A stretch of DNA of 64,000 nt from Symbiodinium natans (lineage: Eukaryota; Sar; Dinophyceae; Suessiales; Symbiodiniaceae), in assembly GCA_905221605.1 (NCBI GenBank), contig CAJNDS010002492.1, forward strand, positions 288,024 through 352,023, given 5' to 3'. The position numbers and the translations under genes are program-made. Positions 6,611 through 43,826 of the stretch are shown here, in pieces. The notes under the pieces are model-generated. The model was not told the origin of the DNA. It saw nothing but the letters and a program-made list of their open reading frames with translations, and made no database searches. Each line of letters opens with the position of its first letter. Positions within the stretch are counted from its first letter, which is position 1.

Positions 6611-7544
6611 CTGAATGTGCAACCTGCGCTCCAAAACCTGCAGGGAATGAGGGGTTTAGGGTTTAGGGTTTAGGGTTTCGACTCTCACACTGGCACAAGC
6701 GGGCGAGGCAACTCCTGTCGAGATCTCTAGAGTGGGTGCATTGACCACCAGTAACGAACCAAGGGTTTAGGGTTTAGGGGCAAGCAAGCTGCAGGCGAAA
6801 GACTGCACCGACTGCGGGATGCCACAGCAGCATCAGCTGGCTAGCTAGCCTCACAGTATGGGTTCCGGGAAACAAGGGGGGCGCAAAAAGGAGAACGGGC
6901 AGAAAAGGGCATAAAAGGATGGAGCTTGTGAAGACCCATCTAGTTACTAGTTGCGGTTCAGGGTTCGAAAGTCTAGGGTTGCTGCATGCTGAACCCCCTT
7001 GAGTGGCCTACACGAAGCATCTCTCGACCCGAATGCACCAACATCCCGAAATCAGAGCCGCCGACCCTTCGTATCCCTCTTTCTTCCTCTCGCGGGCTGT
7101 TTTGTTTCCACCCATCTCCCTCGATCTGAACACGAACGAGAGTGAGTTGCGGCTCCTCCACTGCCCCTGTAGTCGAAAGGGTGTCTTGGTTTTGGTTGGT
7201 GAGGGCGTTTCGGGTTTTACGCTGGCATTCCTAAGGAGTCCGTATAGGAGTCCTACAAACCATAGGCCCGCCTCCTACCCCGGGCCTCCCCAAACCCTAC
7301 CCTGCAGGCCTTGTAGAAGGAGCCTGTTGCTCTGGGTTCCGGGCTTAGGGTTTTGAACCACGCCATGCCTACGGCCACATCGGAAGACTAAAAAAGCTAG
7401 TGGCTAGACACTGAGACGCCCCAAAGTGACGACCCTATGCATGGGTTTAGGGAGTACTGTGCAATAAGCCAAAACCCAAAACCCAAAACCCCCAAACCCT
7501 CAACCCAAACCCTAAACCCTAGCCCTAAACCCTAAACCCGAAAA

Positions 7545-7639
7545 CCGTGCATGAGGCGGGGAAGGCCAGGGCACATCGCGTAGGCTGAGGGAGACAGCAT
7601 GCCAAGGACCATGGGAGCCAGGCATCCCATGGCCACATC
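7545..7639 (-). CDS. Candidate exon, product unknown
   Basis: After CTTCAG the minus strand reads DVAMGCLAPMVLGMLSPSAY..., a hydrophobic stretch that could be a membrane segment. It is flanked by CCCTAAA (7465-7540) and TTTAGGG (7645-7684) on the plus strand. The 3' boundary is uncertain (a GC donor after ...MLSPS, or further on). Confidence 0.3.
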
Positions 7640-7982
7640 CTGAAGGGGGTTTAGGGTTTAGGGTTTAGGGTTTAGGGTTTAGGCGGGGTCTATAGGGTTG
7701 AGGGGCCCTAAGCCCATTTCGGGATTTGGGGGCCCTAAGGCCCTTGTTCCGAGAAGGTTTAGCCCGTGTTAAGCTTCAAAGCTTATAGGCTCTTTCGGAG
7801 TTAATCACTTGTAAAACCTACTACGCATCAACCGGCACCCTGTTCTCCTGGGTTGGGGTCTCAACCTTGGGCAGGCTTAGAAGCCAGGGCAGGAACGGCA
7901 GGGTTCGTATTGTAGGCATGGGGTGTGGGTAGGTTCCTTGGGATATCGGGGAGCTTGGGCCCTACTGGCCGATGACCCTCTG

Positions 7983-8288
7983 CTATGCAGACTGGAGGCC
8001 TCCCCTTGGGACATCCAGAGGATCATAATCACGGCCACGGACCTTGAGGCTATGCAAGGCTGAGATCTCGAAGCCTATACTTCTATTTGCTTAAGATTCT
8101 TCCTTTTAAGGGTAATACAGAGATTATTATTTCTACTTTTTGGGGGTTCTTAAGCAAATGGTGATATAGGCACAGGAACTTGCTCAGGGCTTCGCACAGC
8201 TCGGGGCCCAGCACGATAGGCACGTTCGCGATTATGCCCGCCAGTGCCGGCACAGAGTCCGCCAGCAACATGGCGGACAAGAACACAC
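7983..8288 (-). CDS. Two-exon gene end with an introner intron, product unknown
   Basis: Exon 8156-8288 follows CTTCAG and reads VFLSAMLLADSVPALAGII..., then ...VPIVLGPELCEALSKFL..., ending in two bases TT. Intron 8083-8155 (73 nt) starts GC and ends AG. Exon 7983-8082 resumes in the matching phase and reads LSIGFEISALHSLKVRGRD..., ending ...GGLQSA and TAG. The intron is essentially the inverted-repeat element with ends ATTTGCTTAAGA. A second short element (8304-8395) lies just upstream of the first exon. Matching phases over both exons and a terminal stop support a real gene end. No domain recognised; the first exon is fairly hydrophobic. Confidence 0.5.
8085..8160. mobile_element. Introner-like element, ATTTGCTTAAGA family
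   Basis: Inverted ends TATTTGCTTAAGATTCT and GGGTTCTTAAGCAAAT, 76 bp, noncoding. It coincides with the predicted 73-nt GC-AG intron on the minus strand. A second copy with ends CTATTTGCTTAAGAACCCC and GGGTTCTTATGCAAGCA lies at 19334-19439. Confidence 0.65.
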
Positions 8289-8303
8289 CTGAAGGGTTCT
8301 CCA

Positions 8304-8395
8304 CTGGGAGCCTCTTTACCTACAGTTTTCTGTATGTATTATGCAATACCTACCAATTATGAAGGGTAGTTGCTACCAATCTGTCCCAGGTAGTG
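8304..8395. mobile_element. Introner-like element, CTCTTTACCTACAG family
   Basis: Begins CTGGGAGCCTCTTTACCTAC and ends with a degraded complement (CCAATCTGTCCCAGGTAG). Same family as 2664-2734 and 59570-59656. It lies 15 bp upstream (minus-strand sense) of the exon at 8156-8288, so it is probably inside the preceding intron. Confidence 0.55.
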
Positions 8396-8767
8396 TTCAT
8401 AGGGTTTAGGGCACGGACCAGTCAGCGAAGAAGCCTTGGCATCTTGAATTTCAAATGCTTACCCCAAGCCTAAGATGCTGCACTCAGCCTTGAAGCCCCC
8501 AAACCCCCCCCCCCCCCAAAAAAAAAAAAAACCTTCCTAAACCCTAAAACCTAAACCCTAAACCCTAAACCCTAATTAAACCCCAAACCCTTTTGCATCC
8601 GGACTCCCATGGGTGCAAACCCTAAACCCTAAACCCCAAACCCTAAACCTTAAACCCTTCCCTGTGGGTTTCAGGGTTGAAGGCTCAGGCAGAGATTGTG
8701 CTCCAAGACTCGAAGACTCAGGCAGTTTCGGGGCGCTTTGGGGGGCTGAGGGTTTAGGGTTTTCGGG

Positions 8768-8933
8768 CTAACCCTAAACCCTAAACCCTAAACCCTAAAC
8801 CCTACACCCTGAACCCTGAACCCTGAACCCTAAACCCTAAACCCTAAACCCTAAACCCTGAACCCTGAACCCTAAACCCTAAACCCTAAACCCTAAACCC
8901 TAAACCCTGAACCCTGAACCCTGAACCCTAAAC
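8768..8933. repeat. CCCTAAA array, about 24 units
   Basis: 166 bp of CCCTAAA with interspersed CCCTGAA variants grouped in blocks. It faces the TTTAGGG array at 9029-9110 across 95 bp of GC-rich DNA that is open on both strands. Confidence 0.95.
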
Positions 8934-9028
8934 GGTTTTCGGTGCCAGCGAGACGCAGAACGTCGCGGCGCCGCGGCCGGCGAGGATGGCGCTGCCGCTT
9001 CTTGGCCGCTTACCTGGTTCGGGGAGAC

Positions 9029-9110
9029 TAGGGTTTAGGGTTTAGGGTTTAGGGTTTAGGGTTTAGGGTTTAGGGTTTAGGGTTAGGCTTTAGGGCTTAG
9101 GGTTTAGGGA
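9029..9110. repeat. TTTAGGG array
   Basis: About 82 bp, mostly perfect TTTAGGG, degrading at its right end. Convergent partner of 8768-8933. Confidence 0.95.
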
Positions 9111-10263
9111 TGGGTGTAATTAGGGTTTAGGTTTAGGGTTTCTAGTGCTCAGGGTTTCGGGTTTAGGGAGTTTGCCTGCCACTCCCAAACCCAGCAAATC
9201 AGTCGGTCATAACCCCCCGCCAAAATGGGCACATGTAGCCCAGGTCTTAGGGTTTGGAGAAGCCGAAGCCTCTTCTGGAAGAGTCTTGTATTCGTCGGGT
9301 AAGTTGAGGTTCATGTTTCTTGGCTGCACTTAGGAGGGTAGCTATAAACTACATTTTTAGCTGCCTAGCAAGCCCAATAGAACGAAAAGGATAAGGATCT
9401 AAAGTTCCATTAATTACAGCACCACAGAGGTTTGTTGCGTTGGACGTTAGCGGTCTAGGTTTGGGGACTTTTTCTGAGTGACACGGAGATTCGGAAAGTT
9501 GGAACACCCAATGCTAGGCCCCTTCTCAGGTTTTCATATGGACGAAACGCAACACCTGCGCAGCCACCATGAAAAGTTCTGGTTCGGGGTTTAGGGTTTA
9601 GGGTTTAATTAGGGTTTGAGGTTTAGGGTTTAGGGCTTAGGGTTTAGGAATCCTTCGGATCCCATACCCCGAAGCCAAAGACAGCTTCCTGGTTCGCAGT
9701 ACGGAATTGGGAAATCGCGTGCCCCAAAAAATCCCTAAAATTGATTTAAGAGAAAGTGAAGATGTCACATACAAAACAACCCAAACCCCTAAACTCTAAT
9801 CCCTAAACCCGACTGAAACTAGGAAAAAAAAACAAGCCCAAAACCCGAAACCTCACAGGGCCCGACCCTAAACCCTAAACCCTAAAGCCCCACTTGCCTG
9901 TCGCAGTAGAGGTCGGCAGCTGCAAGAGGCCCAGGCCGAGGAGGAGCCTGAGTAGGGTTTAGGGTTAATAGGGTTTTGGGTTTATAGGGTTTAGGGTTTA
10001 GGGTTCGGGGTTCGGGCTTCAGGTTTAGGGTTTAGGGTTTAGGGCTTCTCGTTCTTCTCCTCTCCCCTTCTTCTCCGTGTGCCTTCGCGTGCGTCCTTCT
10101 CTCTCTCTCTCTCTCTCGCTCGCTCTCGCTCAGCTCGTCATTGGACAGGTCCTCAAATCCTTCATCCGAAACCAAGTGCCTTCTGAGAGTGAAGTCCTAC
10201 AACCCCCCACCCCCCCCCCCGCCCCCCCCCGAGCCCCCTGAAGCCGTCCACTTGCCAGCGCAC

Positions 10264-10852
10264 TCACACAGCCAGGCGCAAACAGCTACCACTCGGACCA
10301 CCTGTGGCAGGGGTTCGGGATTTTTGCATTTTGTGGCTTCGTCCATCTTCGAGTTCAGTTTGAGCTGAATTAACCCGGAGGCAAACACAAATTCGTGAGG
10401 GGTAGGCCAGCTTCTGCGCGAAGCATGGCAGTAAGCCGACGCCGTGCTGGCTCCTGCTTTTCAAGTGAGGCCCCAAAACTTCCAGCACACCAAAGTGCTC
10501 AAAGGGGGAAAAAGTCAAGCGTAGTGACTAAACGTTCAGGACCCAAGCTTCAAGCATCTACCTGCTTATCTTGATCCGGGCGATGTTCTGGGCGCTGTGT
10601 TTTGAGATCCAGTCTGCTGCTTGACATGGTCCTCTTTCCTTTAGGACGTTTCAGATACACGGGCAACTGAGCACTGAGGACCTGGTTTGAGGACGATGCC
10701 GCGCGTTCACCAACCATGCTGTTCGGACGAGCGCTGGCCACATCGTCATCATCCGCAGGCGACTCCATGTCGTCCCAACATCCATCCCGCTGAGCAAGCT
10801 GCTCCCTCGTAGACTCCCTGCCCCAGCACGGACGTGTACTTACGCCCAACAT
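10264..10852 (-). CDS. Candidate two-exon gene, product unknown
   Basis: Minus-strand exon 10562-10852 opens at an ATG and is acidic then basic (DDMESPADDDDVASARPN..., then ...VYLKRPKGKRTMSSSR...), ending ...DQDKQ at a GT donor. After a C/T-rich tract and AG (TTTTTCCCCCTTTGAG), exon 10266-10497 resumes in phase 0: HFGVLEVLGPHLKSRSQHG... . A basic run KRPKGKR resembles a nuclear localisation signal. The true start may lie further upstream. No homologue recognised. Confidence 0.35.
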
Positions 10853-10998
10853 TGATGATTGCTTCGCGCTGAGTTCGCGATGTCACCTCATTCGCACTTT
10901 GGCATTCGGCATCAAGCCCGACTGGGGACACACAAATTCGACTCTGCCTGAGTGCCAATCTCCAACGTCACTGCCGGTGGGGCTGACAGGCCTATTTC

Positions 10999-11057
10999 GG
11001 GGTTTACGAAGTTAGGGGGTTACCTTCCTGGGGTCGTCCCTTATTTTCGTAAACCCC
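10999..11057. mobile_element. Minimal introner-like element with perfect ends
   Basis: 59 bp with perfect 12-bp inverted ends GGGGTTTACGAA / TTCGTAAACCCC. Related by its ends and GGTTACCTTCCTGGGGTC core to 5821-5912, 13529-13632 and 60191-60335. Confidence 0.65.
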
Positions 11058-11280
11058 TATTTCAATTTTGAGGTCTGGCAGCACTGATTCCAAGCTTGTG
11101 ATACGAACGGCGAGTTTATGCAATGCAAGAGGTTAGTTTAGTCACCTGTTCCACCATGAGCAGCACTGCCAGCCAAGATCACGCCAACCCTAAACCCTAA
11201 ACCCTAAACCCGAAACCCTAAACCCGAAACCCTAAACCCTAAGCCCTAAGCCCTAAACCCTAAACCCTAAACCCTGGCGG

Positions 11281-11451
11281 GTCCACAACAGACCCGCGCA
11301 AAACTGTGGCCCCACCAGCAAACCTGAGATGCAGGACTTAGTGTTGAGAAATGACGCCTTTCTGCTCCCCAGTGCGCCTAAAAGCAAGAACCTCCAGCCA
11401 TTTCTGCCCAGAAGAAGGTTTAACCTTCTCGGAATGGATCAGGCGATGTAA
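11281..11451 (+). CDS. Candidate terminal exon, product unknown
   Basis: 56 codons ending in TAA, reading VHNRPAQNCGPTSKPEMQD... to ...FLPRRRFNLLGMDQAM. Non-repetitive and coding-like, directly after a CCCTAAA array (11186-11275) and just before the minisatellite at 11450. The acceptor site is not obvious. Confidence 0.3.
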   Translation, partial: VHNRPAQNCGPTSKPEMQDLVLRNDAFLLPSAPKSKNLQPFLPRRRFNLLGMDQAM

Positions 11452-11765
11452 ACCATGGACGTCATCATGCTTGGGCCATGGATGCTCTCTGCTCATCAGA
11501 GCAGAATAGACCATGGGTCATCATGCTTGGACCCTGGATGCTCTCTTCCCAGAACGGAGTAGACCATGGACGTCATCATGGTTGGGCCATGGCAGTGCAG
11601 AAAACATGTAGACCATGGACGTCGTCATGCTTGGCCATGGATGCTCTCTTCTCATCAGAACAGAGTAGACCATGGACGTCATCATGATTGGGCCATGGAT
11701 ACTCTCTTCCCAGAACGGATTAGATTATGGACGTCATCATGGTTGGGCCATGGATGCTCTCTTCT
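11450..11765. repeat. Minisatellite, about 50-60 bp unit
   Basis: Repeats of CCATGGACGTCATCATG, then TTGGGCCATGGATGCTCTCT and TCATCAGAACAGAGTAGA, in about six imperfect copies. Plus-strand frames stay open because the unit lacks stops, but the peptide is repetitive and I do not call it a gene. Confidence 0.85.
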
Positions 11766-12065
11766 AACTATGGTGAAGCAAACGTGTTGTTTAGACCCAG
11801 GGCTGGGCAGAAGCGGATGCAAGCAAGACAGGGCTTAGTTCAGGACACGTCGAAAGTGCGAAGTAGTGCAAAAAAACCCACAAATACCAGTGCAGTCTAT
11901 GGATGCACAAAAAATTGCAGGATGATTTTGGATAAAAATTGCGGGGATGAGGTGATGGGCGAAACCCAGGAATTATCGGTATTTACAGGGGGTTCTGAGG
12001 GCAACAGAGCTAAACTGCCGAAAACGCGTGGGTCTGTTGTGGCCCCGCCTAGCCCTAAACCCCAC

Positions 12066-12127
12066 CTCCAGGGGCCGCGTGTCAGGCTTGAAGCCCAGGA
12101 TGGCCAGGGCCACCGAGGCTGCGTAGC
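12066..12127 (-). CDS. Candidate exon with hydrophobic segment, product unknown
   Basis: 62-nt minus-strand block with AG before and GT after. It reads YAASVALAILGFKPDTRPLE after a split first codon. Phase 2 in, phase 0 out. Hydrophobic first half. Confidence 0.35.
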
Positions 12128-12137
12128 CTCGGGTTTG

Positions 12138-12262
12138 GTTTAGGGTTTTTGGCGACGGTTTAGGGTTTAGTTTAGGGTTTAGGGTTTAGGGTTTAGGGTT
12201 TAGGGTTTAGGGTTTAGGGTTTAGGGTCTCTTTGGTTTAGGGTTTAGGGTTTGGGGTTTAGG
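12138..12262. repeat. TTTAGGG array
   Basis: About 125 bp, followed at 12286-12345 by CCCTAAA with 9-bp CCCTATAAA variants. Confidence 0.9.
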
Positions 12263-12345
12263 AATTGGGGTTTCGACTCTCGCGCTAACCCTAAACCCTA
12301 TAAACCCTATAAACCCTATAAACCCCAAACCCTGAACCCTAAACG

Positions 12346-12420
12346 GCCCGAAAAGATGGCAGCGAGGCAAGAGGCAGCTCAAGCCAATGACCATGGCAAC
12401 GGCCATGCGGAGCCCAGATC
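12346..12420 (+). CDS. Candidate exon, product unknown
   Basis: Open block MAARQEAAQANDHGNGHAEP... ending before GTGGGG. Bracketed by CCCTAAA on the left and TTTAGGG on the right. A minus-strand frame with a hydrophobic run (MAVAMVIGLSCLLPR) is also open, so strand is uncertain. Confidence 0.25.
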
Positions 12421-12930
12421 TGCCAAGGTGGGGCTTAGGGTTTAGGGTTTTAGGGTTTTAGGGTTTAGGGTTCAGGGTGTAGGGTCTAGGGTTTAGGGTG
12501 TTTGCCGTGCTGCTGACAGGAGTGTAGGGTATATAATTCGGGTTCATGTTTTTGGCGGTTTATCCAGGGCTTGGAGTGTATGACAAATGCTTGGGGTTGG
12601 GTTTCAAGGGTGGAGAACTGAAGGGTTTAGGGTTTACGGTTGGTTTGGGCTGGAGTGGGTGGGTCATTTGCCTGGAGTTTAGGGTTTGTAGCTCTGGCTC
12701 TGTGCGTGGCTCTCGTTCTGTTTTGCGTCAAAAGCACCTACCCTAGAAGCCCCCTTTGGCCTCCAAACCCTAAACCCTAAACCCTAAACCCTTTTTGCCA
12801 CTGGACTTAGGGGACTAACCCTTTTTGCAACTGGGCTGGGGGACTAGCCAGTCTGAGGAGCGCACATGCCTGCCCCCTAAACCCTAAACCCTAGAAGCCC
12901 CACAAAAAAACTCGCCCCTCTTCTGCCAGG

Positions 12931-13012
12931 CCTGCTCGGAAGGAGCCTCTGCAGCCGCGGCCAAGAAGTGACAAGTCGGAGGATGGAGCAAAGCAAACCT
13001 CGAGAAACTCGG
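12931..13012 (+). CDS. Candidate exon, product unknown
   Basis: After CTTCTGCCAG the plus strand reads PARKEPLQPRPRSDKSEDG... to the GT that begins the TTTAGGG array at 13010. Polar, low-complexity composition. Confidence 0.3.
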
Positions 13013-13528
13013 GTTTAGGGTTTAGGGTTTAGGGTTTGGGGTTTGGGGTTTAGGGTGTAGGGACATTTCTTCACAGCAGTGTATATTGAGAACTTATTGC
13101 GTTCTTGTATTCTTCTAAGATTGTAGTGGTATATGATTGCATTGTTCTATTGTCTTACTCTTATTTGAAGACACTTTTACATGAGTATTTTAAAGAAGAA
13201 TATCTAAGATAGCTCCCATGGGTTTACGGCTGAGGGTGGGTTTGTGTGTGGAAGCTAGGGTTCGGGCTTTATGTCCAGGCGCAACAAGGCTAAAGATCCG
13301 GGGTTCACATGTTCAGAGCTTTGAGACCTCATAGGCGTTAACGCGGCTGCAGGCTTGAGAGGTGTTTGGCGGTGGGAGGAAGGTAGCTGAGCCCTAAACC
13401 CTAAACCCTAAACCCTAAACCCTAAACCCTATAAACCCTAAACGGGCGCCTCTCGAGACTCCATGCCCACCGAAAGGGGACAGGCTTAGGGTTTAGGGTT
13501 TAGGGTTCCCAACCAGGCTTTGCCGGAT

Positions 13529-13632
13529 GTGGGGGATTCCGAAGTTATTGGTACCTTCTTGGGGTCCTTATTCTAAGGGAATCCTGCTCTTTGGGGACCT
13601 GTACTGGGGCCCCCTGTTTGCGTAAACCCCCC
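13529..13632. mobile_element. Introner-like element, GGTACCTT..GGGTCCT family
   Basis: Imperfect inverted ends GTGGGGGATTCC / GTTTGCGTAAACCCCC enclosing GGTACCTTCTTGGGGTCC and AGGGAATCCTGC. On the minus strand an open block (ALSESAALDAGPTVVCEIV..., about 13633-13714) abuts it, as expected if the element is that exon's downstream intron. Confidence 0.6.
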
Positions 13633-13714
13633 TGTGTTCGTGTACGCGCGAGACTCTCTCCCACTATCTCGCACACCACAGTCGGCCCTGCATCCAAAGC
13701 GGCTGATTCTGACA
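13633..13714 (-). CDS. Candidate exon next to an introner-like element
   Basis: After GTCGTAAG the minus strand reads ALSESAALDAGPTVVCEIVG then ESLARTRTQ and meets the element at 13529-13632. No family recognised. Confidence 0.35.
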
Positions 13715-13771
13715 GAGCCTTACGACTCACCCGACGCTTCCTCTATAAACCCTAAACCCTAAACCATTTGT

Positions 13772-13882
13772 GGCGCCGAGGCGCTATTGGAGAGCATACC
13801 TGAGGTTCTCACAAGGCTCGAGCAAATATATTCTGACATTGTCTGTTTCTTTCAACTAGTGGCCGAGATTTTGGTCAGCTAG
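13772..13882 (+). CDS. Candidate exon, product unknown
   Basis: Plus-strand block reading GAEALLESIPEVLTRLEQIY, then SDIVCFFQLVAEILVS and TAG. It has amphipathic, helix-like composition. An alternative reading uses TTTCTTTCAACTAG near 13859 as a splice acceptor. Confidence 0.28.
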   Translation, partial: GAEALLESIPEVLTRLEQIYSDIVCFFQLVAEILVS

Positions 13883-14134
13883 GCACAAATTCAAAATTTG
13901 CACATGACACAAGATCTTAATTTGCAGTTTAGATTTGCCACTTCAGGCGCCTCTCTCGCACCGCTGGAACATCTGAGACCCCAACATGCAGTCCTATATC
14001 GACACTCCTTGAGCACTTCTGTGCCAGGAAGAATGCCTTTGCATCAGGGCTGTTTTAGAAGTCCTTTGTAAGCATATGCCGAAAAAGCAGCCTTGTGGCA
14101 ACAAGGCCAATCCTAAAACCCTCACCTTTCAGCG

Positions 14135-14226
14135 TTTCCAAAAATAGGGGTACCTCTTTTGGGGGTCCCTTTAAGGGGATTATATTCTATTTGGGGTATA
14201 ACAGGGGTACCCCCTATTTTGGGAAA
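14135..14226. mobile_element. Short inverted-repeat element
   Basis: 92 bp with imperfect ends of about 19 bp, TTTCCAAAAATAGGGGTACC / GGTACCCCCTATTTTGGGAA. The core contains GGGGTATAACAGG. Related fragments occur near 620-660 and 5060-5085. Confidence 0.7.
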
Positions 14227-14550
14227 TGCCCAGACCCAGAAGAAACCTAGGAACGAAAAGGGTGCCCTTTGGTTTTAAGGGCATGAAAAGGGAAACCGAA
14301 CCCTAAAAAAAGGAAATAAGGGCCTCCTCCGGGTCCTGGACAAGCTCCCCGACAGAAACTGAACCCTAAACCCTAAACCTTAAACCCTAGACCTTAAACC
14401 CTATTTTGGGAATGCCCATATTCTCACCGCTAGACCCTGCATCATGCTTGCTCCACGGCACCCAGCGGCATGCCTAACATCGCAATCTCGAAGTCCACCC
14501 GACGTGTGGTCTGCACCAGGGGAACAGAGGGCGACCCGGACGAGGCTGGC

Positions 14551-14694
14551 TTAGGGTTTAGGGTTTAGGGTTTAGGGTTTAGGGTTTAGGGTTTAGGGTT
14601 TAGGGTTTAGGGTTTAGGGTTTAGGGTTTAGGGTTTAGGGTTTAGGGTTTAGGGTCTAGGGATGGTCTAGGGCTTAGGGCTCAGGGTTTAGGGT
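14551..14694. repeat. TTTAGGG array, about 15 perfect units then decay
   Basis: Perfect TTTAGGG from 14551 to about 14656, then TCTAGGG and CTTAGGG variants. The preceding block 14431-14549 is open on the plus strand (HHACSTAPSGMPNIAISKS...). Confidence 0.95.
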
Positions 14695-14973
14695 TGTGGC
14701 AAGGGCTTGCTTTGACATAGCTTCCCAAAGCATGCTAAAGAACCTGGTGCAAGGCTCCCAGCTGTCGAAAAAAAAAACACACACACACACACACACACAT
14801 GGCACGAAGTCCTAAGCGGCGGCGTAAATGCATCCTCGTGCAGATGCTTCCATCCTACCAGTCCAGGCCACGAGATAGCAAAGGCCCGAAAACAGACACA
14901 ACCTTTCAGCCCTCAACCCCCGAACCCCTGAACCCAATACACCTGCAAGACTCAAACTGGTTTACGGCTTGGT

Positions 14974-15078
14974 AGGCCAGTAACCATATGAGAATAAGGG
15001 TACCCTTTTTTGGGGTTGGTTACTGTATAAGGGAACCTTGAACCCCAAAAAAGGAAAAAGGGGCACCAGTGGGCTCCC
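14974..15078. mobile_element. Introner-like element, GCCCAGT..GGGTACC family
   Basis: Ends GGCCAGTAACC and GGCACCAGTGGGCTCCC. Core AGGGTACCCTTTTTTGGGG and TTGGTTACTGTATAAGGGAA. A clear sister copy with better ends lies at 21021-21124. Confidence 0.6.
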
Positions 15079-15125
15079 TAAACCCTTAACCCCTCCAACC
15101 CCAAACCAACCTAAGCACTCGATGC

Positions 15126-15197
15126 CTGGAGGATGAACCCCACGCTCGCCACCACGGCCACGTGCGGCACCTGCCCAGCGTTCAGGAACCAGGAACC
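15126..15197 (-). CDS. Candidate exon, hydrophobic, product unknown
   Basis: 24 codons in phase 0 reading GSWFLNAGQVPHVAVVASV then GFILQ, followed by a GC donor. The preceding AG would be the TTTAG of a heptamer on this strand. Probably part of a membrane protein; no family identified. Confidence 0.35.
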
Positions 15198-16115
15198 CTA
15201 AACCCTAAACCCTAAACCCTAAACCCTAAACCCTAAACCGAAACCCTAAACCCGCACGGCTTTGAGGCATGTTGGCCACCTGCACTGGTGACATGGTTTA
15301 GGAATCAGGGTTGGGCTTTCAGCCCAAAACCTGCCTGTTTGGTTGGCAATTCCTGCAAAAAAACCCTAGTTTGAGTAGCCTACAAAACACAAATAGCTTT
15401 GGGGCTCCTCAGGCAGGGTCGATTGCGGGATTGTGGGGTGCGGCTTTTGGGTTGCATGGTATCATGCTGGCTACCGGCCCATCGAGGTCTGCATTTAGGG
15501 TTTAGGGTTTAGGGTTTAGGGTTTATACCAGGAATACGACTTTGATGACAGGCAATGTTCGCAAGAATGGCAGTTCAAAACTTGATGAAACGGGACACCC
15601 CGTAAAAGACCTGTTGGCTGATGATTGTTGTGCTTTGTGATGTGCTTCCACCCAGCTGTCGGCAAGGGCACGGTTCCAAGCACTCCACCAACAACGCCGC
15701 CGAAACGTTCGACGGCTGCAGTGATCACAACCTGGCAAGGCAAGGGGCAGAGGCTGCAGAAGCACCACAGGCCCGTGGGCCCGAAGTATCCGAAAGCAAG
15801 AGCTGAAATCCTACACCCTGAAGCGTAAACCCCTCAAGAATGACACTCATCGTGGCCTTTGCCTCTGCCACCCTACCACTTGAGAGGCAACATTACATGG
15901 AAAGGTATGGGCATTGTGACTCCGAACGTTTTCAAGGATGCTTCGCATTGAAGTTTGCGGTGACCTAATACGCCTATAAGCCTAATACGCCCACTTCCAT
16001 GACCCGATCGGTTTGCGAACGCCGTTTTGAAGTGAACTTTAAAGGGTGTAGGGTTTAGGGTTTAGGGTTTAGGGTTTAGGGTCGTTTATGCCGTGGCAAA
16101 CTCTTGCTTTTTTAT

Positions 16116-16280
16116 GCTCGTCAAGAAACGATTACAAGAGCCGCAACACTGGCAGAGGTGATCTCCACGATCCACGTCATGGGCGCAAGGCACGCCTATG
16201 CGAGCACCCTGCCACGTGCTTACTTGCACAGGTCTGCTGTCGGGCTTGTTGTTCCGCCTTCTCCGGCTTGTGCTTGAAGC
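16116..16280 (+). CDS. Candidate exon, product unknown
   Basis: Plus-strand frame reading QETITRAATLAEVISTIHVM..., then GARHAYASTLPRAYLHRSA... . Two other frames are also open. Heptamer arrays end at 16083, and the block up to 16400 holds none. Confidence 0.22.
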
Positions 16281-30259: not shown

Positions 30260-30449
30260 AGATCCCTGTACTATGTTTGCTCGTAGTGCCTGAGAGGCCA
30301 CAGTGTCTCATCAACTCCAATGGGGTAGCACGGTAAAGCCGTCGGAAAATGAAACTGTCGCTTGAGCTTGCCTAGCGTTTCAACACACGTCCTCTACTCG
30401 TCTTCATCTCTCTGAGCCTATGCAAATCTTCAATGACCAACTAATAGCA

Positions 30450-33720: not shown

Positions 33721-34200
33721 TTTTCAATCGAGCTCACAATTTGAAAATACGACCACGCACATATGAAGACTCGCACATATCAAGATTTACATGTCCATAT
33801 TGAGATTTACATGTTTAGCTAGCCCCCCACCCCCAACCCTAAAACCCTAAAACAGATCCCAAAACCACGAAAATACCTAGATCTTTGGGGGGGGGGGGGG
33901 GTACCATATATATATATATATGCATTGCATCCTATGTAGCGCCAAAACCCTGTCCCCTTGAGCTTTACAGCTCGCTGCTCAACCAGCCCCGAAGATGCGC
34001 AGTCTCGTCGAACCCGGCCTGATCCTGCTTGGCACTTCCACATTGGCTTTTCCTGCCATGCGCGAGGGAGGGGGGGGGGGTTGAGATAGAATGCGCGCCT
34101 GCACCAGGCTTGAAGACGTACGGCGGCTTGCCCTATTGGGTACACTCATCTATGCGGACTTCATTTCTTCTAATCCCTATACAATGAATTGAAGAATCCC

Positions 34201-35161: not shown

Positions 35162-38100
35162 CTACAGCTTGGAGAACTCGGCCTTGGTCTTCATCAGCGA
35201 GGCTTGGGCAGCCTTCATGAGGTCTTCGGACATGAGATGGATGGAGTTCCACTGCAGGATCTGGTCCAAGCCTTCTTGGACCGAGTGGTCCCTGCTGTAG
35301 TTCAAGCTCCTTAAGCTGTTTGATTCGGGTTTAGGGTTTAGGGTTAGGGCTTAGGGGTTAGGGTTTGGGGTTTGGGGTTTGGGGTTTGGGGTTTAGGGTT
35401 TGGGGTTTAGGGGTAGGTTTCGGGCTTCGACTCGCGCACGGCTGGTGAGGCTTCTAGGGCTTTCAGGCTTTGGATGTGGGTTCTTCCGCTGAAGCAGATT
35501 CACTGGACTTCTGGACTAGCCAGCAGGTGGCTGAGCTACTCGCGGGGCATGTCAACCCTACGCCCTAGAAACACTATGAGCCCTATGAAGCCTATGAACC
35601 CTACAAACCCTATAAACCCTATAAACCCTATAAACCCTATAAACCCTTTAAACTCTACAGACCCTATAAAGCCTGTGAACCCTGTAAGCCTTACAAACCC
35701 TATAAACCCTGCAAACTCTTAAACACTGAACCCAAGAATTCGCTTCAAAACTTCCAAAACGATCCAAGCATCACCTTTGTGCCCACCACGGCCACCGGGG
35801 ACTTTGAGGCAATCTCCTGCGCAATCTTCCGGGCTTCGGCCAGGCACACCTGTTAGGGTTTAGGGTTTGGGGTGGGCTGTCTCATAACGGCACCATTGAA
35901 GAATCAAGCCCTTTTCCCTCGTCTTACCACACATTCCGACCGCTGCACTCAAAATGGGCTCACACGCCTTTGCATAGGGGTTTAGGGTGTGCAAACTCCT
36001 ACCCTAAACCCTAAACCCTAAACCCCGAACCCCTAAACCCTAAAGTTCCAACAGCCCTGCAGAAAGCCCCTCGCACGCCTCGCGTGAGGGCAGAACCTTG
36101 CCGACAAGGCCCAACTCTTTTGCCTCCTTGGCCCCAAGGGAGTCTCTAAGCGTAGGGTTTAGGGTTTAGGGTTCAGGGTTTGCGGTTTGGGGTTTAGGGT
36201 TTAGGGTTTCGGAGGATAGAACGCCCGTACTCCCACAGGAGGCGGGGTTGCGAGGTGCAGATGCCTCACGACCCCATCCCTGCCAGCGAAGTATCTAAAA
36301 CAAGCGTGGGCATGCTAACCCTAAACCCTTTTGACCCCGCGAGCTCTGCCGGGTTTCCAACGTCCCTAAACCCTAAACCCTAAACCGTAAACCCCAAACC
36401 CTAAACCCTAAACTCTAGCCGATGCAATGAACTCAGACGCCCCCTCAGATGAGGAAACCCTGAAGACTACGCCCATCCGCTTAATAGGTATGACCCAGAA
36501 AACTGTAGCCCTAAACCCTACAGAAAGGCACGCTGCGGGGCCCCACTTTTCCACAAACTGGATTTTGAAACCTTCAACCCTAAACCCTAAACCCTAAACC
36601 CAAAACCCTAAACCCTATGAAAGGTCCGAGCAGGTTCGAGCAGGTCCGAGCATCCGCTGCGGCCAAACGCCGCCCCGTGAATGCAAGCTCTCGAACCACG
36701 GAGTCATTGCCGACGATCTTGGGCCTCAAACGGGTTTAGGGTTTAGGGTTTGGGGTTTGGGGTTTGGGGTTTGGGGTTTAGGGTTTAGGGTTTGGGTTTG
36801 GGGTTTGGGGTTTGGGGTTTGGGGGTTTAGAGTTGAGGGTTTGGGGTTTAACATTCCGGTGAAGATGCCCTTAAGCTCATACTCGAAGTGCACAACGGTA
36901 TTCAAGTTCACAGGGTTGCGAACCTACAGGGGTTTGGGGTTGAGGCCTTTCGGATTTAGGGCGACGGTTTTAGGATTCGGGACCTGTGCGGTGCACAGAA
37001 AATGTTTCCAAACACCGCTTGTGGGGGCAATCGCTGAAGGGTGCCCACATCAGCTGCCAAGCCAACATTGACCTGGCGCCGTTTGGGGGAACTGGGCGCT
37101 CACTTGATGCTTTAGGGTATAGGGTTTAGGGCTGGTTCATCAATTCTAGGTTCTAAGCTGGATGTCTTCTGGAAGCAAGCATCCTCGACTCGGGGGGCTG
37201 GGGATCTTCGGTAGGGAAAACTTCCGCACTATTTGGGATGCCCCGACCTCTGCGATAGAGAACCAAGCGTCCTCAGTGCAGTAGCGGATGTCGCAGGCGC
37301 TGGCCAAGTCCTTGGGGACCAAATGAACCCGAAAAGGGTTTATGGCTCATATACCTTCATAGGAAGTATAGTAGAATAGAACCTAAACCCTAAACCCTAA
37401 ACTGCCCTAAACCCTAAACCCTAATTAAATCCCAAACCCTAAACCCTAAACCCTAAACCCTTTGACCCCCCAATCTCAGGGTTCATGTCGTCCCCAAGGA
37501 TCTACCCCGGCTCCCACGATGCCGTTGTGAAGCGCCACGACCACGGGCTTCCGACAGCGCTCGATGCTGGAGATGCCCTCCTTGTAGGCATCATGCACGT
37601 TATGTGTGTACATACATGTGTACATAGGGTTTAGGGTTTAGGGTTTAGGGTTTAGGGGTATGTAGATGCTGTTTCCAGTACGAGTACAGCTTGCGGCGTC
37701 TTGTGCGGTGCGGATTTGGAAGTCTTGCAATGATCCGGCGAATGTCCATACCCGCTTTACTTTCCGAAAGTGCCCCTACTAAGCCCTACTAAGCACAAAC
37801 ATTCTGCATCCGGGCATTGAACGTGCCTTTTCCTTAAAACCGCAAAACAAGAGATCCAAGCTTCTTGGCATCGCTTGATGATGGGCTCCATTCGGAAGGC
37901 CTTGCGGCTCACGTCGAGCTTGGCGTCACCAGTCGGGAAGCCACCAATCCTTGGGATTCCGCTCTTCAGCTATGTGGTGTACAGTGTAGAGTTTAGGGTT
38001 AGGGCTGCTGTTTGGCTATCTTCTAGGCTGTGGGACCTTAGCCAGTAGGAGCTACAGATGAGATGCAAGGGTTCCAAGCTCTGAGAACTCTTCCGCCTCC

Positions 38101-39015
38101 CCTGCCACTCCCTCCACTGGCTAGACCAAACTTCCCAGGTTATTCTACCCTAGAACCCCTAAACCCTAAACCCTAAACCCTAAACTAAACCCTAAACCCT
38201 TCAAAAAGGCCCTCTATAGGGTTGACTATGAGGATTCGCAGGCCGAATACGGGGAAGAATCTCGCTCTTCAGGTCGAGCCCGGCGGTGAAGAGGCGCGAC
38301 TCACCACCGTGGAGCAGTACGCAACGCGTCTCCGGATCTTCGGATGCCATCTCAAAACCTCAGTGCGTCTAAGCCTTGTAAATGGGTATAGGGTTTAGGG
38401 TTTAAGGTTTAGGGTTTAGGGTTTAGGGTTTGGGGTTTGGGTTTAGGGTTGGGTAGTTCAATAGTTCAATAGTTCCCTAAGTTCGGGTCCCTTTTTGGGG
38501 ATCTGCTTTTTGAAGGGTGCCGGCTACCCAAAAAGGGACCCTAAGTTTAGGAAACTACCCAAGTACTACAAAGGTTCAACTCGGAGTCTATGGGCAAAAG
38601 GGAGCCTGTCACTTGAGTCGCTGGACCATGAACCGTGTCCGAGATTATCGCCCGCCCCCATCTGTTACTGGTTCTAGTACGGTGGAAGTAGGGGGTCAGA
38701 CAAGAAGACACCTTGATTTAGAGGGTCTGGTAGGGCTGACGCAGTTAGTCACCTGCACAGCGGTCCAAGAAACATCGTCGCAGGTCCAGCCACATAGCCT
38801 AGGTTTGTTCCCTGAACCCTCTGAAACATATTCCTTTCAATCTGATCCTCATAAGCCCACTATAAGGGGAAATACAAAGATATCCCATGAACCGACCTAG
38901 TTGCCCGATTGAAGGCATTGAGCGCTTTGGGTCGGTTGAGTGCGACCTCCAGGATGCCAGATGCGGGATCGCGCACCACTGCCAGGGCTTCAAACTCCCA
39001 GGACATGTCGGCCAT
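35162..39015 (-). CDS. ECH1: Delta(3,5)-delta(2,4)-dienoyl-CoA isomerase, peroxisomal, 11 exons
   Basis: Exons (minus strand): 39015-38905, 38798-38774, 38358-38240, 37969-37862, 37580-37503, 37310-37248, 37072-37029, 36724-36652, 36126-36079, 35849-35770, 35306-35162. Phases agree throughout and give 297 aa. The enzyme isomerises 3,5-dienoyl-CoA to 2,4-dienoyl-CoA in beta-oxidation of unsaturated fatty acids. Crotonase-fold landmarks: LNRPKALNAFNR near the N-terminus, LFTAGLDL, IERCRKPVVVALHNGIVGAG, VDLASACDIRYCTEDAWF, VNVGLAADVGTLQRLPKIVG, SRDHSV. The three catalytic acids of rat ECH1 (Asp176, Glu196, Asp204) match Asp148, Glu168 and Asp176 with identical spacing. The C-terminal SKL is a type 1 peroxisomal signal. 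Donors: seven GC, two GT, one GA; all acceptors AG. Exon 2 is only 25 nt. The exon 3/4 boundary is the least certain. Nine of ten introns carry heptamer arrays. Divergent from the gene at 39.9-42.4 kb. Confidence 0.93.
35575..35725. repeat. 9-bp variant array (CCCTATAAA) in ECH1 intron 10
   Basis: CCCTATAAA repeated several times in tandem with decayed neighbours. It differs from the 7-bp unit by an inserted TA. Similar stretches occur at 12296-12330 and (8-bp CCCTATAA) 55000-55025. Confidence 0.9.
36733..36850. repeat. TTTAGGG/TTTGGGG array in ECH1 intron 7
   Basis: About 118 bp of mixed TTTAGGG and TTTGGGG. On the ECH1 sense strand it reads CCCTAAA and ends 8 bases before exon 8. Confidence 0.9.
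38470..38556. mobile_element. Short inverted-repeat element inside ECH1 intron 2
   Basis: Arms of about 29 bp, AGTTCCCTAAGTTCGGGTCC with CTTTTTGGG and the complement CCCAAAAAGGGACCCTAAG, around a 28-bp loop. It occupies part of the 415-nt intron 38359-38773. Confidence 0.7.
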
Positions 39016-39756
39016 CTCTCGCGGGTTCTGGAGTCCAAAAACCCCTGGAAGTACCTAGAACTGCTCACCAGAGGGAAGGTCAGGCAAGATAAGGGCCAAC
39101 AGCTGCGGCTGCAAGAACTTCAGGCCTTGCCCCCACCCCTCAGGGATGGGCCCCCCCCACCGGGTGGGTCTCATGCAGCCTTCTCCCGACAGCCACCAAA
39201 AACCCTAAACCCTAAACCCTAAAACATCATCCCAATTCCTATGCCCGAACTTTAAAAGTCTTCTCTGCTCACAGACCATGCTTAAGAGAAGCATTCTGTA
39301 GCCCGGCAGCCTCCTTTCTGGGGCTGGCTACTATACCCCGGCCCTTTTTAACCCCGTCTATGACTGTGACATGAGCCCCAAAGCATCCAAGAGCGCTACC
39401 AGACAGTACTACCGAGAACTAACAACTCTTGCAGACTTCAGAGCCTATGCACGTCAGCGCAGTGCAGCCAGGCTTCGCCACCTCCTATCACCTCCCCTTT
39501 CGCGTCGCGCAGGACGCCAGGGTCGAATCTGCGCCTCCTATGGGCACGGGGGCTTTTCTGGAGGGCTTCTGGGGGGCTTTTGGGGCTTCAGAGGGGGCCT
39601 AAACCCTAAACCCTATTTTGGGGGTTTAGGGGTGTATAGGGGGTGTCGGTGGCAGCCGTGGTGCTAGATGAGGCTTCTCAAACTCCAAACACGACACATC
39701 CTCTTTCGAGGAGCCCCGCTTGAAACTGGCACCCCCTTTTGTGAGCCACAATCAAT

Positions 39757-39840
39757 CTAAACCCTAAACCCTAAACCCTAAACCCTAAACCCTAAACCCT
39801 AAACCCTAAACCCTAAACCCTAAACCCTAAACCCTAAACT
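39757..39840. repeat. CCCTAAA array, 12 units
   Basis: Perfect units. The following 130 bp are open on the plus strand near 39915-39950 (RAESLRSMHKK before GTGATT). Confidence 0.95.
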
Positions 39841-39914
39841 CCTACGAAAGCACAGAAAGGCTTTTGGGGGGTTCCGAAAGGCGCACATCTGAGAGCTTCA
39901 AGACTCTAGCGTGC

Positions 39915-42396
39915 GGAGAGCCTGCGCAGCATGCACAAGAAGGTGATTTGAGGTCGCCAGGTCGCCAAAGTTTGCCCTAAACCCTAAACCCTAAACCCTA
40001 AACCCTAAACCCGAAAAAGTATGGTTCAGAGTTTTAGGGCTTTTGGGACGGCTTGGGGTGTAAGGATGCAAGGTGGCCCCAAAACCCAAGTGGACTCATT
40101 CCCCCGCCCGCGAGCGCATCTTCCGTGCTTTGTACGGCCCTTAGGGTTTAGGGTTTCGGGTTTATGAATTCATAAGCCACGAGGCCCTGAACTCAAAACC
40201 CAGAACGACTCACCCCAGGCCGACTTCAAACTTTAAGTGTTGCATGTCTGTATGCAGTCTTGTAAGCGGGCGTAAACAAGAACCTGCAACTTACAGGAAG
40301 GCGTTGGAAACCCTAAACCCTAAACCCCAAACCCTAAACCCCAAACCCTAAACCCTAAACCCCAAGCTCCAAACCCCAAACCCCAAACCCCAAACCCTAA
40401 ACCCTAAACCCCATCCATGGCCACCCTCAGGGCACCTGCCATCTGAGAGCCTGATGGCCGAAGAGGAGCTGCCTTATCTGCAGGTCTCTTGCAGACATGT
40501 TAGAATCCCTAAACCCTAAACCGTAAACCCCAAACCCTAAACCCTAAACTGGGGCTTATTGGGTTTCACCAACACCTTGAGACTTGCGTCGTGCTAAGCT
40601 GGCGGAACCTTGAATCAGATGCACCCAAAAGGCCACTCAGACGTAAAGCTGACAAAGCCGGCCCGGTTTAGGGTTTAGGGTTTAGGATTTAGGGTTTAGG
40701 GTTTAGGGTTTAGGCTTCAGGGATGTTCAGGGTTTAGGGTGTAGGGTTCCCTGCAGAATGCCCGGGATGCGCACTCTTTGGAACGATGCTTCGCTTGGAG
40801 GTCGAAGGGGCAGAGGCCTCCCGGCCGAACTCCTCCTCGGCCTGTGGACTCACCCTAAACCCTAAATCCTAAACCCTAAACCCTAAACCCTACCCCTAAA
40901 CCCTAAACCCTAACCCTAGTTGCCTCCCGACGCCCGCCCACTACAGAGAGAGTTTTTTGCGTCTGAATTCCATGGTTGACAGAAGGGTGCTTCAGCCTTG
41001 TGAGTGTCGGGAGACTGCACTGCGGATGCCTAAACCCTAACCCTAAACCCTAAATTGCGAAAGCAAGGTGCCCCAGCATGCATTGCTCTCCGGGGGCGTC
41101 AACCATGGGAACCCTCAAGTGGGCCGCAACCCCTAACGTCCCCATGCCCGCTGCTCGAGAAACACAAAATCACCTTGAACCCAACGCAAGCAACCCTAAA
41201 CCCTAGCCCCTAAACCAACCCTAAACCCTAGCCCCTAAACCCGAAACCTTAAACCCGCAATCCCTGAACTCTTTTAAACCCTAAACCCTAAACCCTAAAC
41301 CCTAAACCCTTGCAGAAACCCTTGACGTCCTCGCCTGGCCGTCACTGGCAGCAGTGTCTTCCATCCACTCCTTGGGTTTTCAAATTTCAGCCTTCATCTT
41401 TGAGGCTCAGGGTTTAGGGTTTAGGGTTTAGGGTTTAGGGTTCAGGGCTTGCAGAGACTGAGTTTCTGATCTGAAATGCAACCCCTGAATCCCAAACCAG
41501 CCTTTTCATGCGGCCTCCGCGTTTGTCAGACTCGGCAAGGGTCTTTTAGCGGTAGTTCGGGGGGTGGTTTTGAAGACTACGTCTGCCCTCTTGCCTTAAG
41601 CACTAGCCCGAAACCCTAAACCAGGGCTCTTAATCCGTCGACCGCTACAAGAAGTATCTGGGGGTCTCCCAGAATTCGGGTACCTATCTTCGGGGGTCCT
41701 TCTCCATAGGTAAACCCTAAACCCTAAACCCTAAACCCTAAACCCTGTTATCAGGGGGTGGAGAGAAGGGTCCACGAGGGGTTCAAGCAAGATTTTCAAG
41801 GCCCCGGCTGCAGTGGCGAAGCCCTTCGCCGCCTTGGCTCTCACGACCAGGCGACCTGGCTGCATAGCCCTAAACCCTAAACCCTAAACCCTAAACCCTT
41901 TTAGGGTTTAAGGTTTAGGGTTTAGGGTTTAGGGTTTAGGGGCCTCTTTGTCTGTGGCCTGCAAGCTCCGACTCGGACTGAAGCAAAGACTCACTGGCTC
42001 CGCATGCGCCCGCCTGTAAACCGCCCTACGCCCTACACGCTGATTCAAACGCATGGTCATCAACAATTTAGGGTTTAGGGTTTAGGGTTTAGGGTTTAGG
42101 GTTTAGCTCCTTCGACTGCTTCCTTCCATCTTTTGTAACCCACAAGCAAGAATGCCGTTGTAGACCACGGCTACGTACATCTCAGGGCCACTCGCTGGAT
42201 AACCTTTTTGCCGAAGGAACGGCTCATCCATTTTGACAACTCCTCAAAGTTGACATGGCTCATCTTGCTGAAGCCCCAGACCCTTGATCCTACTCTCTCT
42301 CTCCCCCCAAGGATGCAGGGGGCGCCGAAGCTGTGGATGCGCGACTGGACTTCTGGACGCCGGCTGGACCCAGCCTTCGGGAAGGGGCTCGATTAG
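39915..42396 (+). CDS. Candidate multi-exon gene, product unknown
   Basis: Plus-strand open blocks sit between heptamer arrays: RAESLRSMHKK (near 39917-39949), SPARERIFRALYG (near 40100-40138), SLMAEEELPYLQ (near 40449-40484), ARDAHSLERCFAWR (40757-40798), SFLRLNSMVDRRVLQP (near 40950-40999), TLDVLAWPSLAAVSSIHSLG... (41316-41411, between TTGCAG and the GT of a TTTAGGG array), LRLGLKQRLTGS (41966-42001). The last two exons are the best: 42186-42272 (ATRWITFLPKERLIHFDNSS, then KLTWLILL) and 42312-42396 (KMQGAPKLWMRDWTSGRRLD, then PAFGKGLD, stop). They join in frame by a 39-nt GC-AG intron ending in a C/T tract. Phases of earlier blocks were not all reconciled. No family recognised. Confidence 0.42.
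41869..41942. repeat. Abutting CCCTAAA and TTTAGGG arrays
   Basis: CCCTAAA runs to 41899 and TTTAGGG starts at once, making a perfect-type hairpin with no loop sequence between. Confidence 0.9.
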
Positions 42397-43552: not shown

Positions 43553-43589
43553 ACCCCCCCCCCCCTCCCCCCCCCCCTCCCCCCCCCCC

Positions 43590-43625
<36 letters not shown>

Positions 43626-43826
43626 CCCCCCCCTCCCCCCCCCCTCCCCCCCCCCCCCCCCCCCCTCCCCCCCCCCTCCCCCCCCCCCGCTCCCCTCCCC
43701 CTCCCCGCCCCCCTCCCCCCCCCCCCTCCCCCCCCCCCCCCCCCCCCCCCTCCCCCCCCCCCTCCCCCCCCCCCCCCTCCCCCCTCCCCCCCTCCCCCCG
43801 CCCTCCCCCCCCTCCGCCCCCCCCCC
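43553..43826. repeat. C-rich tract with periodic single T, about 270 bp
   Basis: Runs of 5-30 C separated by single T or occasional G. Preceded by AAGGTACC, the same GGTACC-plus-C form as the transposon ends. The poly-Pro and poly-Gly frames through it are not genes. Confidence 0.97.

Follow-up and report, generated by a model that had tools for sequence, protein, structure and literature searches.

Dinoflagellate genes contain very short exons and use GT, GC, and GA donors, which raises the question of how the spliceosome finds such exons. In Symbiodinium natans, AG|G acceptors are reported for 97.1% of introns, and GT, GC, and GA donors for 23.6, 58, and 18.4%, respectively (PMC10666404). 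The introners of S. microadriaticum, introns born of DNA transposons with terminal inverted repeats (TIRs), carry a 4-nt direct repeat and TIRs, with the 5′ splice site lying in the duplication and the element ending in AG (PMC9860276). The non-canonical introns of Amoebophrya combine direct repeats of 3–5 nt with TIRs of 8–20 nt, and their complementary ends are proposed to join the exon boundaries; their splice sites are varied, and no U1 is reported to be detected (PMC7789003). In zebrafish, hairpins formed by dinucleotide repeats at opposite intron boundaries are reported to mediate U2AF2-free splicing (Lin et al., cited in PMC9198270), and the earlier note on this DNA, which proposed that telomere-type heptamers pair across introns and knew of no described system of this kind, was not quite right in the latter respect. 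TTTAGGG is reported as the dinoflagellate telomere unit (PMC11453091). Among the titles and abstract beginnings of the matches listed, none described polarised telomere repeats in introns, which does not establish their absence from print, and the main text of the S. natans genome paper contains neither "telomer" nor "TTTAGGG" (PMC8045281).

The window analysed here, a 64-kb stretch of S. natans DNA, holds 423 exact 14-mers of the telomere-type heptamer, and TTTAGGG arrays occupy much of it, so that the telomere unit lies inside a chromosome as in interstitial telomeric sequences. Unlike these, the tracts are very many and short, and many of them adjoin exons with a strand preference. Two genes of the window were checked by homology (Table 1). 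The minus-strand gene at 39015→35162 is ECH1, with a coding sequence of 846 nt in 11 exons (25–148 nt); its 281-aa product matches PF00378 (Pfam, E = 5e-42) and, as top match in the PDB, the dienoyl-CoA isomerase 1dci (E = 1.3e-78), and residues 5–281 align without gaps to P0002, from a 967-nt contig that is presumably a transcript, at 90% identity. By these comparisons the predicted protein belongs to PF00378 and appears most closely related to dienoyl-CoA isomerases. The exon model retains 38904 as the 5′ limit of the intron span and moves the other limit from 35307, as first read, to 35310. All 10 acceptors are AG|G, and the donors, which had been described as weak GC donors, are GA in five introns, GC in three, and GT in two, GC thus not being the majority. 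The second gene (gene 2) exactly encodes the 265-aa S. natans protein P0122, and its exons are numbered from the P0122 ATG.

Table 1. Positions of exons, introns, and heptamer tracts in the two genes (window coordinates; tracts are read on the sense strand).
Feature	Positions	Strand	Description
ECH1 CDS exons 1–4	39015-38905, 38798-38774, 38358-38262, 37949-37865	-	Spliced translation, P0002, PF00378
ECH1 CDS exons 5–8	37580-37503, 37310-37248, 37072-37029, 36724-36655	-	Spliced translation, P0002, PF00378
ECH1 CDS exons 9–11	36126-36079, 35849-35773, 35309-35162	-	Spliced translation, P0002, PF00378
ECH1 intron 1	38799..38904	-	No heptamers; direct repeat GCAA/GCTA; ends CTAGGT...ACCTAG
ECH1 intron 2	38359..38773	-	CCCTAAA tract, only before 3′ splice site; direct repeat GTTT/GTTT
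ECH1 intron 3	37950..38261	-	TTTAGGG in 5′ part (donor to first unit 65 nt); CCCTAAA near 3′ end; direct repeat GATT/GATT
ECH1 intron 4	37581..37864	-	CCCTAAA tract before 3′ splice site
ECH1 intron 5	37311..37502	-	TTTAGGG tract only; terminal inverted repeat CTTGGGGAC...GTCCCCAAG
ECH1 intron 6	37073..37247	-	CCCTAAA before 3′ splice site
ECH1 intron 7	36725..37028	-	Long CCCTAAA/CCCCAAA tract at 3′ end; exception: single CCCTAAA, 67 nt from donor
ECH1 intron 8	36127..36654	-	TTTAGGG tracts in 5′ half and middle; CCCTAAA tract at 3′ end
ECH1 intron 9	35850..36078	-	TTTAGGG at 5′ end; CCCTAAA x2, one mid-intron, one adjoining acceptor
ECH1 intron 10	35310..35772	-	TTTATAGGG nonamers in 5′ half; CCCTAAA/CCCCAAA at 3′ end
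Gene 2 coding region	6777..16180	-	Match to P0122; 15 exons of 15–76 nt, 14 introns
Gene 2 intron 1, exception	15732..16129	-	CCCTAAA 48 nt downstream of donor
Gene 2 intron 2, exception	15171..15671	-	TTTAGGG x7 at 25 nt before acceptor; CCCTAAA in 5′ half

The earlier note had described heptamers of fixed polarity in nine of the ten ECH1 introns, and exact heptamers are indeed found in nine. CCCTAAA ahead of the acceptor was confirmed in introns 2, 3, 4, 6, 7, 8, 9, and 10, and exact TTTAGGG units occupy the first part of introns 3, 5, 8, and 9, whereas intron 10, also listed, has the nonamer TTTATAGGG in their place. By intron halves, 22 of 28 TTTAGGG units lie in the 5′ half and 25 of 27 CCCTAAA units in the 3′ half. 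Counted as tracts, 13 of 16 are concordant, and "fixed" overstates the polarity, given a CCCTAAA at fractional position 0.23 of intron 7, another at 0.41 of intron 9, and a TTTAGGG tract at 0.55 of intron 8.

Polarity at the splice sites was counted from the nearest heptamer to each site in the 10 introns of ECH1 and the 14 of gene 2. Within 60 nt, TTTAGGG was nearest at 11 of the 5′ splice sites and CCCTAAA at one, whereas CCCTAAA was nearest at 15 of the 3′ splice sites and TTTAGGG at one (Fisher 6e-6); within 120 nt, the G-rich to C-rich counts were 13:2 and 2:16, respectively. ECH1 contributes 11 concordant heptamers out of 11 to the 60-nt count, and gene 2 alone is concordant in 15 of 17 (p = 0.003). 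Judged by its opening introns, gene 2 seemed to contradict the polarity, but the full exon model reversed this. TTTAGGG lies a median of 38 nt downstream of the donor, and the end of CCCTAAA a median of 20.5 nt upstream of the acceptor. Within the two genes, 10 of the 11 short gaps that run from a C-rich to a G-rich tract enclose a verified exon, as against none of seven other short gaps. AG density is 2.5 over the 60 nt upstream of the acceptor versus 4.35 per 60 nt in the rest of the introns, which partly restates the presence of the C-rich tract; with heptamers masked, the G–C skew is −0.13 in the last 100 nt of introns, +0.05 in the first 100 nt, and +0.02 in the middle, so that the 5′ ends hardly exceed the middle. 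Tracts that are intronic, strand-polarised, and near splice sites are thus borne out in both genes, and the arrangement of CCCTAAA before and TTTAGGG after an exon looks real and reaches beyond ECH1. The tracts are not required: of the 24 introns, three lack a heptamer in the 60 nt next to both ends, and 14 carry one at just a single end.

It is very unlikely that the heptamers are merely common in the genome, through chance or a bias of repeat expansion, and that their polarity is a local accident. Such an accident would be favoured by the use of a single window, yet ECH1 and gene 2 are each significant alone, and outside both genes, where exons are only candidate, 19 of 23 C-to-G gaps are short, versus 7 of 21 G-to-C gaps (19/20,000 shuffles). 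The 19 short C-to-G gaps there score higher for coding than random unmasked DNA (p = 0.015); compared with the 30 other short gaps they do not (p = 0.42), which speaks for chance. The same is true of exons predicted by an ab initio gene finder, which was trained on ECH1, so that its recovery of ECH1 exons is in-sample, and which led to gene 2 but gave otherwise unreliable exons: polarity was not significant on 43 predicted exons including gene 2 and excluding ECH1 and a mobile element (832/5000 shuffles), nor on 51 predicted exons (655/5000), and the closest tract on the upstream side of high-scoring exons was G-rich in six cases and C-rich in two, an opposite lean. On logical grounds, a bias between strands in transcription or replication could not produce tracts of opposite orientation at the 5′ and 3′ ends of one intron.

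Further searches covered the window and IMG/VR contigs. A third candidate gene at about 54–46 kb had no match in a homolog search, and CTTGG/CCAAG end motifs alone were in no clear excess beside tracts by bare counts. Rfam gave no match at gathering thresholds. Pfam scans of raw frames on both strands of 1–24.4 kb and 39–64 kb, with stops as X, gave nothing above cutoff, a few matches lying below it (E 0.085–0.29); the positive control, ECH1 in raw frames, got no further than E = 0.036, in a single frame of the three, so that these negatives carry no information. In IMG/VR, the contigs bearing TTTAGGG arrays (L001–L009) have one or two tracts apiece without pattern, and no relatives of ECH1 were found there.

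The ends of the ECH1 introns carry a transposon-like footprint. Direct-repeat positions 1–4 match in 10, 9, 5, and 7 of 10 introns and fall to background beyond (positions 2–4, 21/30 matches, 0/100,000 permutations), and this 4-nt repeat contains the GT, GC, or GA donor. Inverted repeats lie just inside it, at offset 4, with 54/100 matches versus 40 across introns (15/20,000 permutations), those at offset 3 being weaker (34/100, 578/20,000 permutations). The ECH1 introns, and for these alone the claim is made, look like introner insertions of the TIR type, judged by the sequence of their ends, with the same architecture as in S. microadriaticum, where the consulted part of the account does not mention polarised telomere-type heptamers. 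By contrast, the direct repeat of gene 2 is weak (6, 6, and 6 of 14 at positions 2–4, expected 6.2, 3.1, and 3.3), and no excess of inverted repeats is seen at offset 4 (27/112, 2556/5000 permutations). The heptamers may themselves be subterminal inverted repeats of introners, reading TTTAGGG on the left and CCCTAAA on the right in either insertion orientation, with no function needed; the ECH1 footprint speaks for this, and a symmetric element would account for both ends together. Even so, this explanation appears unlikely: joint arms would be expected, yet the two ends are independent; the variants differ between the ends of ECH1 introns (19 CCCCAAA units in the 3′ halves as against a single TTTGGGG in the 5′ halves); and gene 2 is strongly polar with little or no footprint, near-perfect tracts standing beside decayed ends, so that polarity is more than a TIR relic.

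The earlier note was correct that the two tract types are complementary (UUUAGGG with CCCUAAA), as are the simple repeats at opposite intron ends in zebrafish and the intron ends of Amoebophrya, which share short direct repeats as well. Here, the tandem heptamers lie mostly 10–60 nt inside the intron, and acceptors are AG|G in 22 of 24 introns. The earlier note had proposed that the donor-side and acceptor-side tracts of one intron pair and bring the splice sites together, for which the complementarity in inverted order and the zebrafish precedent speak. Seven of the 24 introns have both tracts within 60 nt, four have TTTAGGG at the 5′ end only, eight CCCTAAA at the 3′ end only, and five neither, so that 12 have a single expected tract; in this small sample, with little power, introns with both ends show no excess over independence (p = 1), unlike zebrafish, where the repeats are reported to co-occur in one intron. 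Minimum-energy folds of pre-mRNA pieces (span 600–900, parts of gene 2 omitted) predict, for 228 intronic G-tract bases, pairing with C-tract partners within their own intron (ECH1 76, gene 2 152), but also, for 199, pairing with C tracts of another intron, across exons (ECH1 124, gene 2 75), and in the 3′ piece of ECH1 the ratio of same to other goes from 76:34 to 52:57 at span 1900. In the predicted structures, loops enclosing exons measure 71–197 nt (11 cases) and those enclosing introns 39–564 nt (nine cases), the former being mostly the shorter; exons could hence be looped out through this complementarity, which would favour their skipping. Pairing within introns is thus improbable as the explanation, and for the unusual donors, which it was meant to account for along with the short exons, 4-nt direct repeats as in introners are simpler.

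We tentatively favour, at somewhat less than even confidence, the reading that the donor-side and the acceptor-side tract each work on their own at their splice site. At least in the introner-like introns of ECH1, the GT, GC, and GA donors would come from a 4-nt target duplication and hence be weak. A UUUAGGG tract near the donor would be a series of G-triplets, which enhance weak donors in other organisms. The CCCUAAA tract, C-rich and without G, and hence without a decoy AG, would offer repeated CUAAA, which has a branch-point role in other organisms, in the zone usually taken by the branch point and pyrimidine tract. A reversed tract would read UUUAG|GG and mimic an AG|G acceptor, so that selection would tend to purge reversed tracts near acceptors, although intron 2 of gene 2 shows that such a decoy is tolerated at least once. 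The polarity itself, the independence of the two ends, the tract distances, which fit the donor-proximal and branch-point/pyrimidine zones, the scarcity of AG upstream of acceptors, and the masked skew at 3′ ends count for separate signals; the ab initio exons without significant polarity and the introns that lack tracts count against them. Tract positions, polarity, and the ECH1 introner footprint are observed, and from these we would infer an effect on splicing, selection, and a protein or snRNP as reader of the tracts.

The tracts may help splicing. A wider version, that exons throughout the S. natans genome are bracketed in this way, with CCCUAAA replacing the branch-point/pyrimidine signal, UUUAGGG boosting weak donors, and a telomere-like code defining exons of 15–80 nt, is doubtful at present. 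A strand-preferring repeat that brackets exons would be a readable signal and might account for the way in which newly inserted introners come to be spliceable; furthermore, telomere-like repeats would go from noise to markers of gene structure and could improve gene prediction.

Exact 14-mers of TTTAGGG or CCCTAAA occur 423 times in the window, against 0.01 in shuffled sequence, and TTTAGGG is named as the dinoflagellate telomere unit in PMC11453091. The polarity of these tracts was determined at the 24 verified introns of two genes in this one window. The dienoyl-CoA isomerase gene ECH1 was picked in the earlier note on account of the pattern, whereas gene 2, which encodes the Symbiodinium natans protein P0122, was reached through a coding search and was not selected on tracts. 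The initial exon model of ECH1 was aligned with eight homologs (62–89% identity), and the exon 3/4 junction was set by P0002, a homolog from a 967-nt contig (presumably a transcript) that is without the extra residues of the initial model; the final protein matches P0002 without gaps over 277 residues. Exon 2 has the length of 25 nt that had been read from the sequence alone. The ten introns have GA (5), GC (3), and GT (2) donors and AG/G acceptors throughout; for S. natans, a table in PMC10666404 gives GT 23.6, GC 58, and GA 18.4%, and AG/G 97.1%. The 14 introns of gene 2 are fixed by P0122 ("unnamed protein product [Symbiodinium natans]" in the database) and separate exons of 15–76 nt, the smallest at 13799-13785; all acceptors are AG (AG/G in 12/14), and the donors are GT (6) or GC (8). 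The exact match to P0122 marks the window as DNA of S. natans or of an extremely close relative. The gene 2 product, which is hydrophobic and probably a membrane protein, is related to sequences from other transcriptomic or metagenomic collections, and no Pfam family scored above cutoff (DUF3147, 20.7 bits vs. 23.6).

Coordinates of the coding regions and long open reading frames (ORFs) in the window
Feature	Position	Strand	Description
ECH1 coding region	39015-35162	minus	spliced translation, 11 exons, 281 aa, dienoyl-CoA isomerase
Gene 2 coding region	16180-6777	minus	15 exons encoding the 265-aa P0122 residue for residue, then a stop codon
Long intronless ORF 1	25077-26039		within 24300-33950, amid GATTGAA/TTCAATC repeats
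Long intronless ORF 2	26546-28552		within 24300-33950, amid GATTGAA/TTCAATC repeats
Long intronless ORF 3	28892-30259		within 24300-33950, amid GATTGAA/TTCAATC repeats

A tract is called concordant if, on the sense strand, it is TTTAGGG toward the intron 5′ end or CCCTAAA toward the 3′ end. Exact heptamers are present in nine of ten ECH1 introns, as the earlier note had it, with 22/28 TTTAGGG copies in the 5′ half and 25/27 CCCTAAA copies in the 3′ half; 13/16 tracts are concordant, as are all 11 heptamers that lie nearest to a splice site at up to 60 nt. Intron 10 does contain a tract in its first part, as claimed, but its unit is TTTATAGGG and not the heptamer: a nonamer array (CCCTATAAA, 16 copies, 35563-35710), reading TTTATAGGG on the coding strand, replaces the expected TTTAGGG tract in the same strand sense. 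Furthermore, an inverted repeat resembling a hairpin lies in intron 2 (38470-38552; minus-strand GGGTCCCTTTTTGGG and CCCAAAAAGGGACCC) and may be a small element nested there. In gene 2, 21/29 tracts are concordant, as are 15/17 of the nearest heptamers within 60 nt of splice sites, the exceptions being CCCTAAA 48 nt past the donor of intron 1 and TTTAGGG 25 nt ahead of the acceptor of intron 2. For both genes within 60 nt, TTTAGGG:CCCTAAA is 11:1 at 5′ sites and 1:15 at 3′ sites (Fisher 6e-6); 22/24 introns contain an exact heptamer, and in 3/24 both ends are heptamer-free for 60 nt.

A serious rival is that the symmetry is element-borne, the heptamers being subterminal inverted repeats of introners (transposon-born introns). 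Intron bases 1–4 of ECH1 tend to recur at the start of the following exon (10, 9, 5, and 7 matches of 10 at positions 1–4; 2/10 from position 5 on), and the 21/30 matches at positions 2–4 were reached by 0/100,000 permutations. Terminal inverted repeats are clearest with the four repeated bases skipped (offset 4, 54/100 vs. 40 across introns, 15/20,000; offset 3, 34 vs. 25.6, 578/20,000), although boundaries were placed by homology and splice-site rules with the repeats already known, so that bias is possible. This footprint matches the architecture described for S. microadriaticum introners in the Fig. 2 legend of PMC9860276, i.e., a 4-bp duplication, terminal inverted repeats, a 5′ splice site from the duplication, and a 3′ site within the element, and such an origin would explain the odd ECH1 donors. 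By contrast, the footprint is weak or absent in gene 2, where heptamer polarity is strong; footprint and polarity are thus not the same thing.

If exons are bracketed by CCCTAAA before and TTTAGGG after, a C tract closely followed by a G tract, on either strand, should enclose an exon. Within the two genes, a verified exon lies in 10/11 short (60–200 nt) C-to-G gaps vs. 0/7 other short gaps. Outside both genes, 19/23 C-to-G gaps are short vs. 7/21 G-to-C gaps (reached by 19/20,000 label shuffles), and outside ECH1 only, 26/33 vs. 8/32 (1/20,000). Predicted exons outside ECH1 showed no significant polarity, high-scoring ones having TTTAGGG upstream in 6 cases vs. CCCTAAA in 2, against the polarity, and coding scores of C-to-G gaps outside both genes did not exceed those of the remaining short gaps. 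What extends beyond the two genes is therefore a spacing bias, with at most a possible link to exons. Tracts are dense at 39700-42100, where an apparent minus-strand exon (41855-41773, predicted) is flanked by TTTAGGG on both sides, contrary to the polarity. Heptamer tracts are absent for about 6.8 kb (24377-31191), and thence to 33.9 kb only tracts of 9–17 nt occur. The region 24300-33950 looks like a large mobile element; its ORFs have no Pfam match, the third has weak PDB matches only, and a transposase-like zinc-ribbon look is only an impression. Within 31008-32041, a stretch seems to be duplicated at a distance of 660 nt, since the positions of heptamers, as well as a 22-nt exon predicted there, come back exactly 660 nt later. 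Long imperfect poly-C runs lie at 43554-43826 (273 nt) and 2101-2215 (115 nt).

The two tracts of one intron could pair, as had been proposed, and a similar idea of intron-end pairing appears for zebrafish in PMC9198270. Under a pairing mechanism, the presence of one expected tract in an intron should make the other more likely; no such tendency was seen (7 both, 4 only 5′, 8 only 3′, 5 neither; p=1, with little power at 24 introns). Loops that enclose exons measure 71–197 nt (11 cases), mostly less than those that enclose introns (39–564 nt, 9 cases), and in minimum-energy folds of pieces of both pre-mRNAs (span 600–900), 228 G-tract bases pair within the same intron and 199 with another, one ECH1 piece changing from 76:34 to 52:57 with a longer span. 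Pairing is thus possible yet not singled out by end independence, loop lengths, and fold counts. Tracts follow donors at a median of 38 nt and precede acceptors at a median of 20.5 nt. These distances, the independence of the two intron ends, and the strand content suggest, as far as sequence can indicate, that the tracts act separately at the two splice sites. G-triplet enhancers and the branch-point consensus are known from other organisms. The G-triplets of the UUUAGGG tract would adjoin weak donors and act there, whereas the acceptor-side tract, AG-free, C-rich, and containing CUAAA, would stand at the place of the branch point and pyrimidine tract. Reversed, the latter would present a row of UUUAG/GG decoys, an orientation that is tolerated before the acceptor of gene 2 intron 2.
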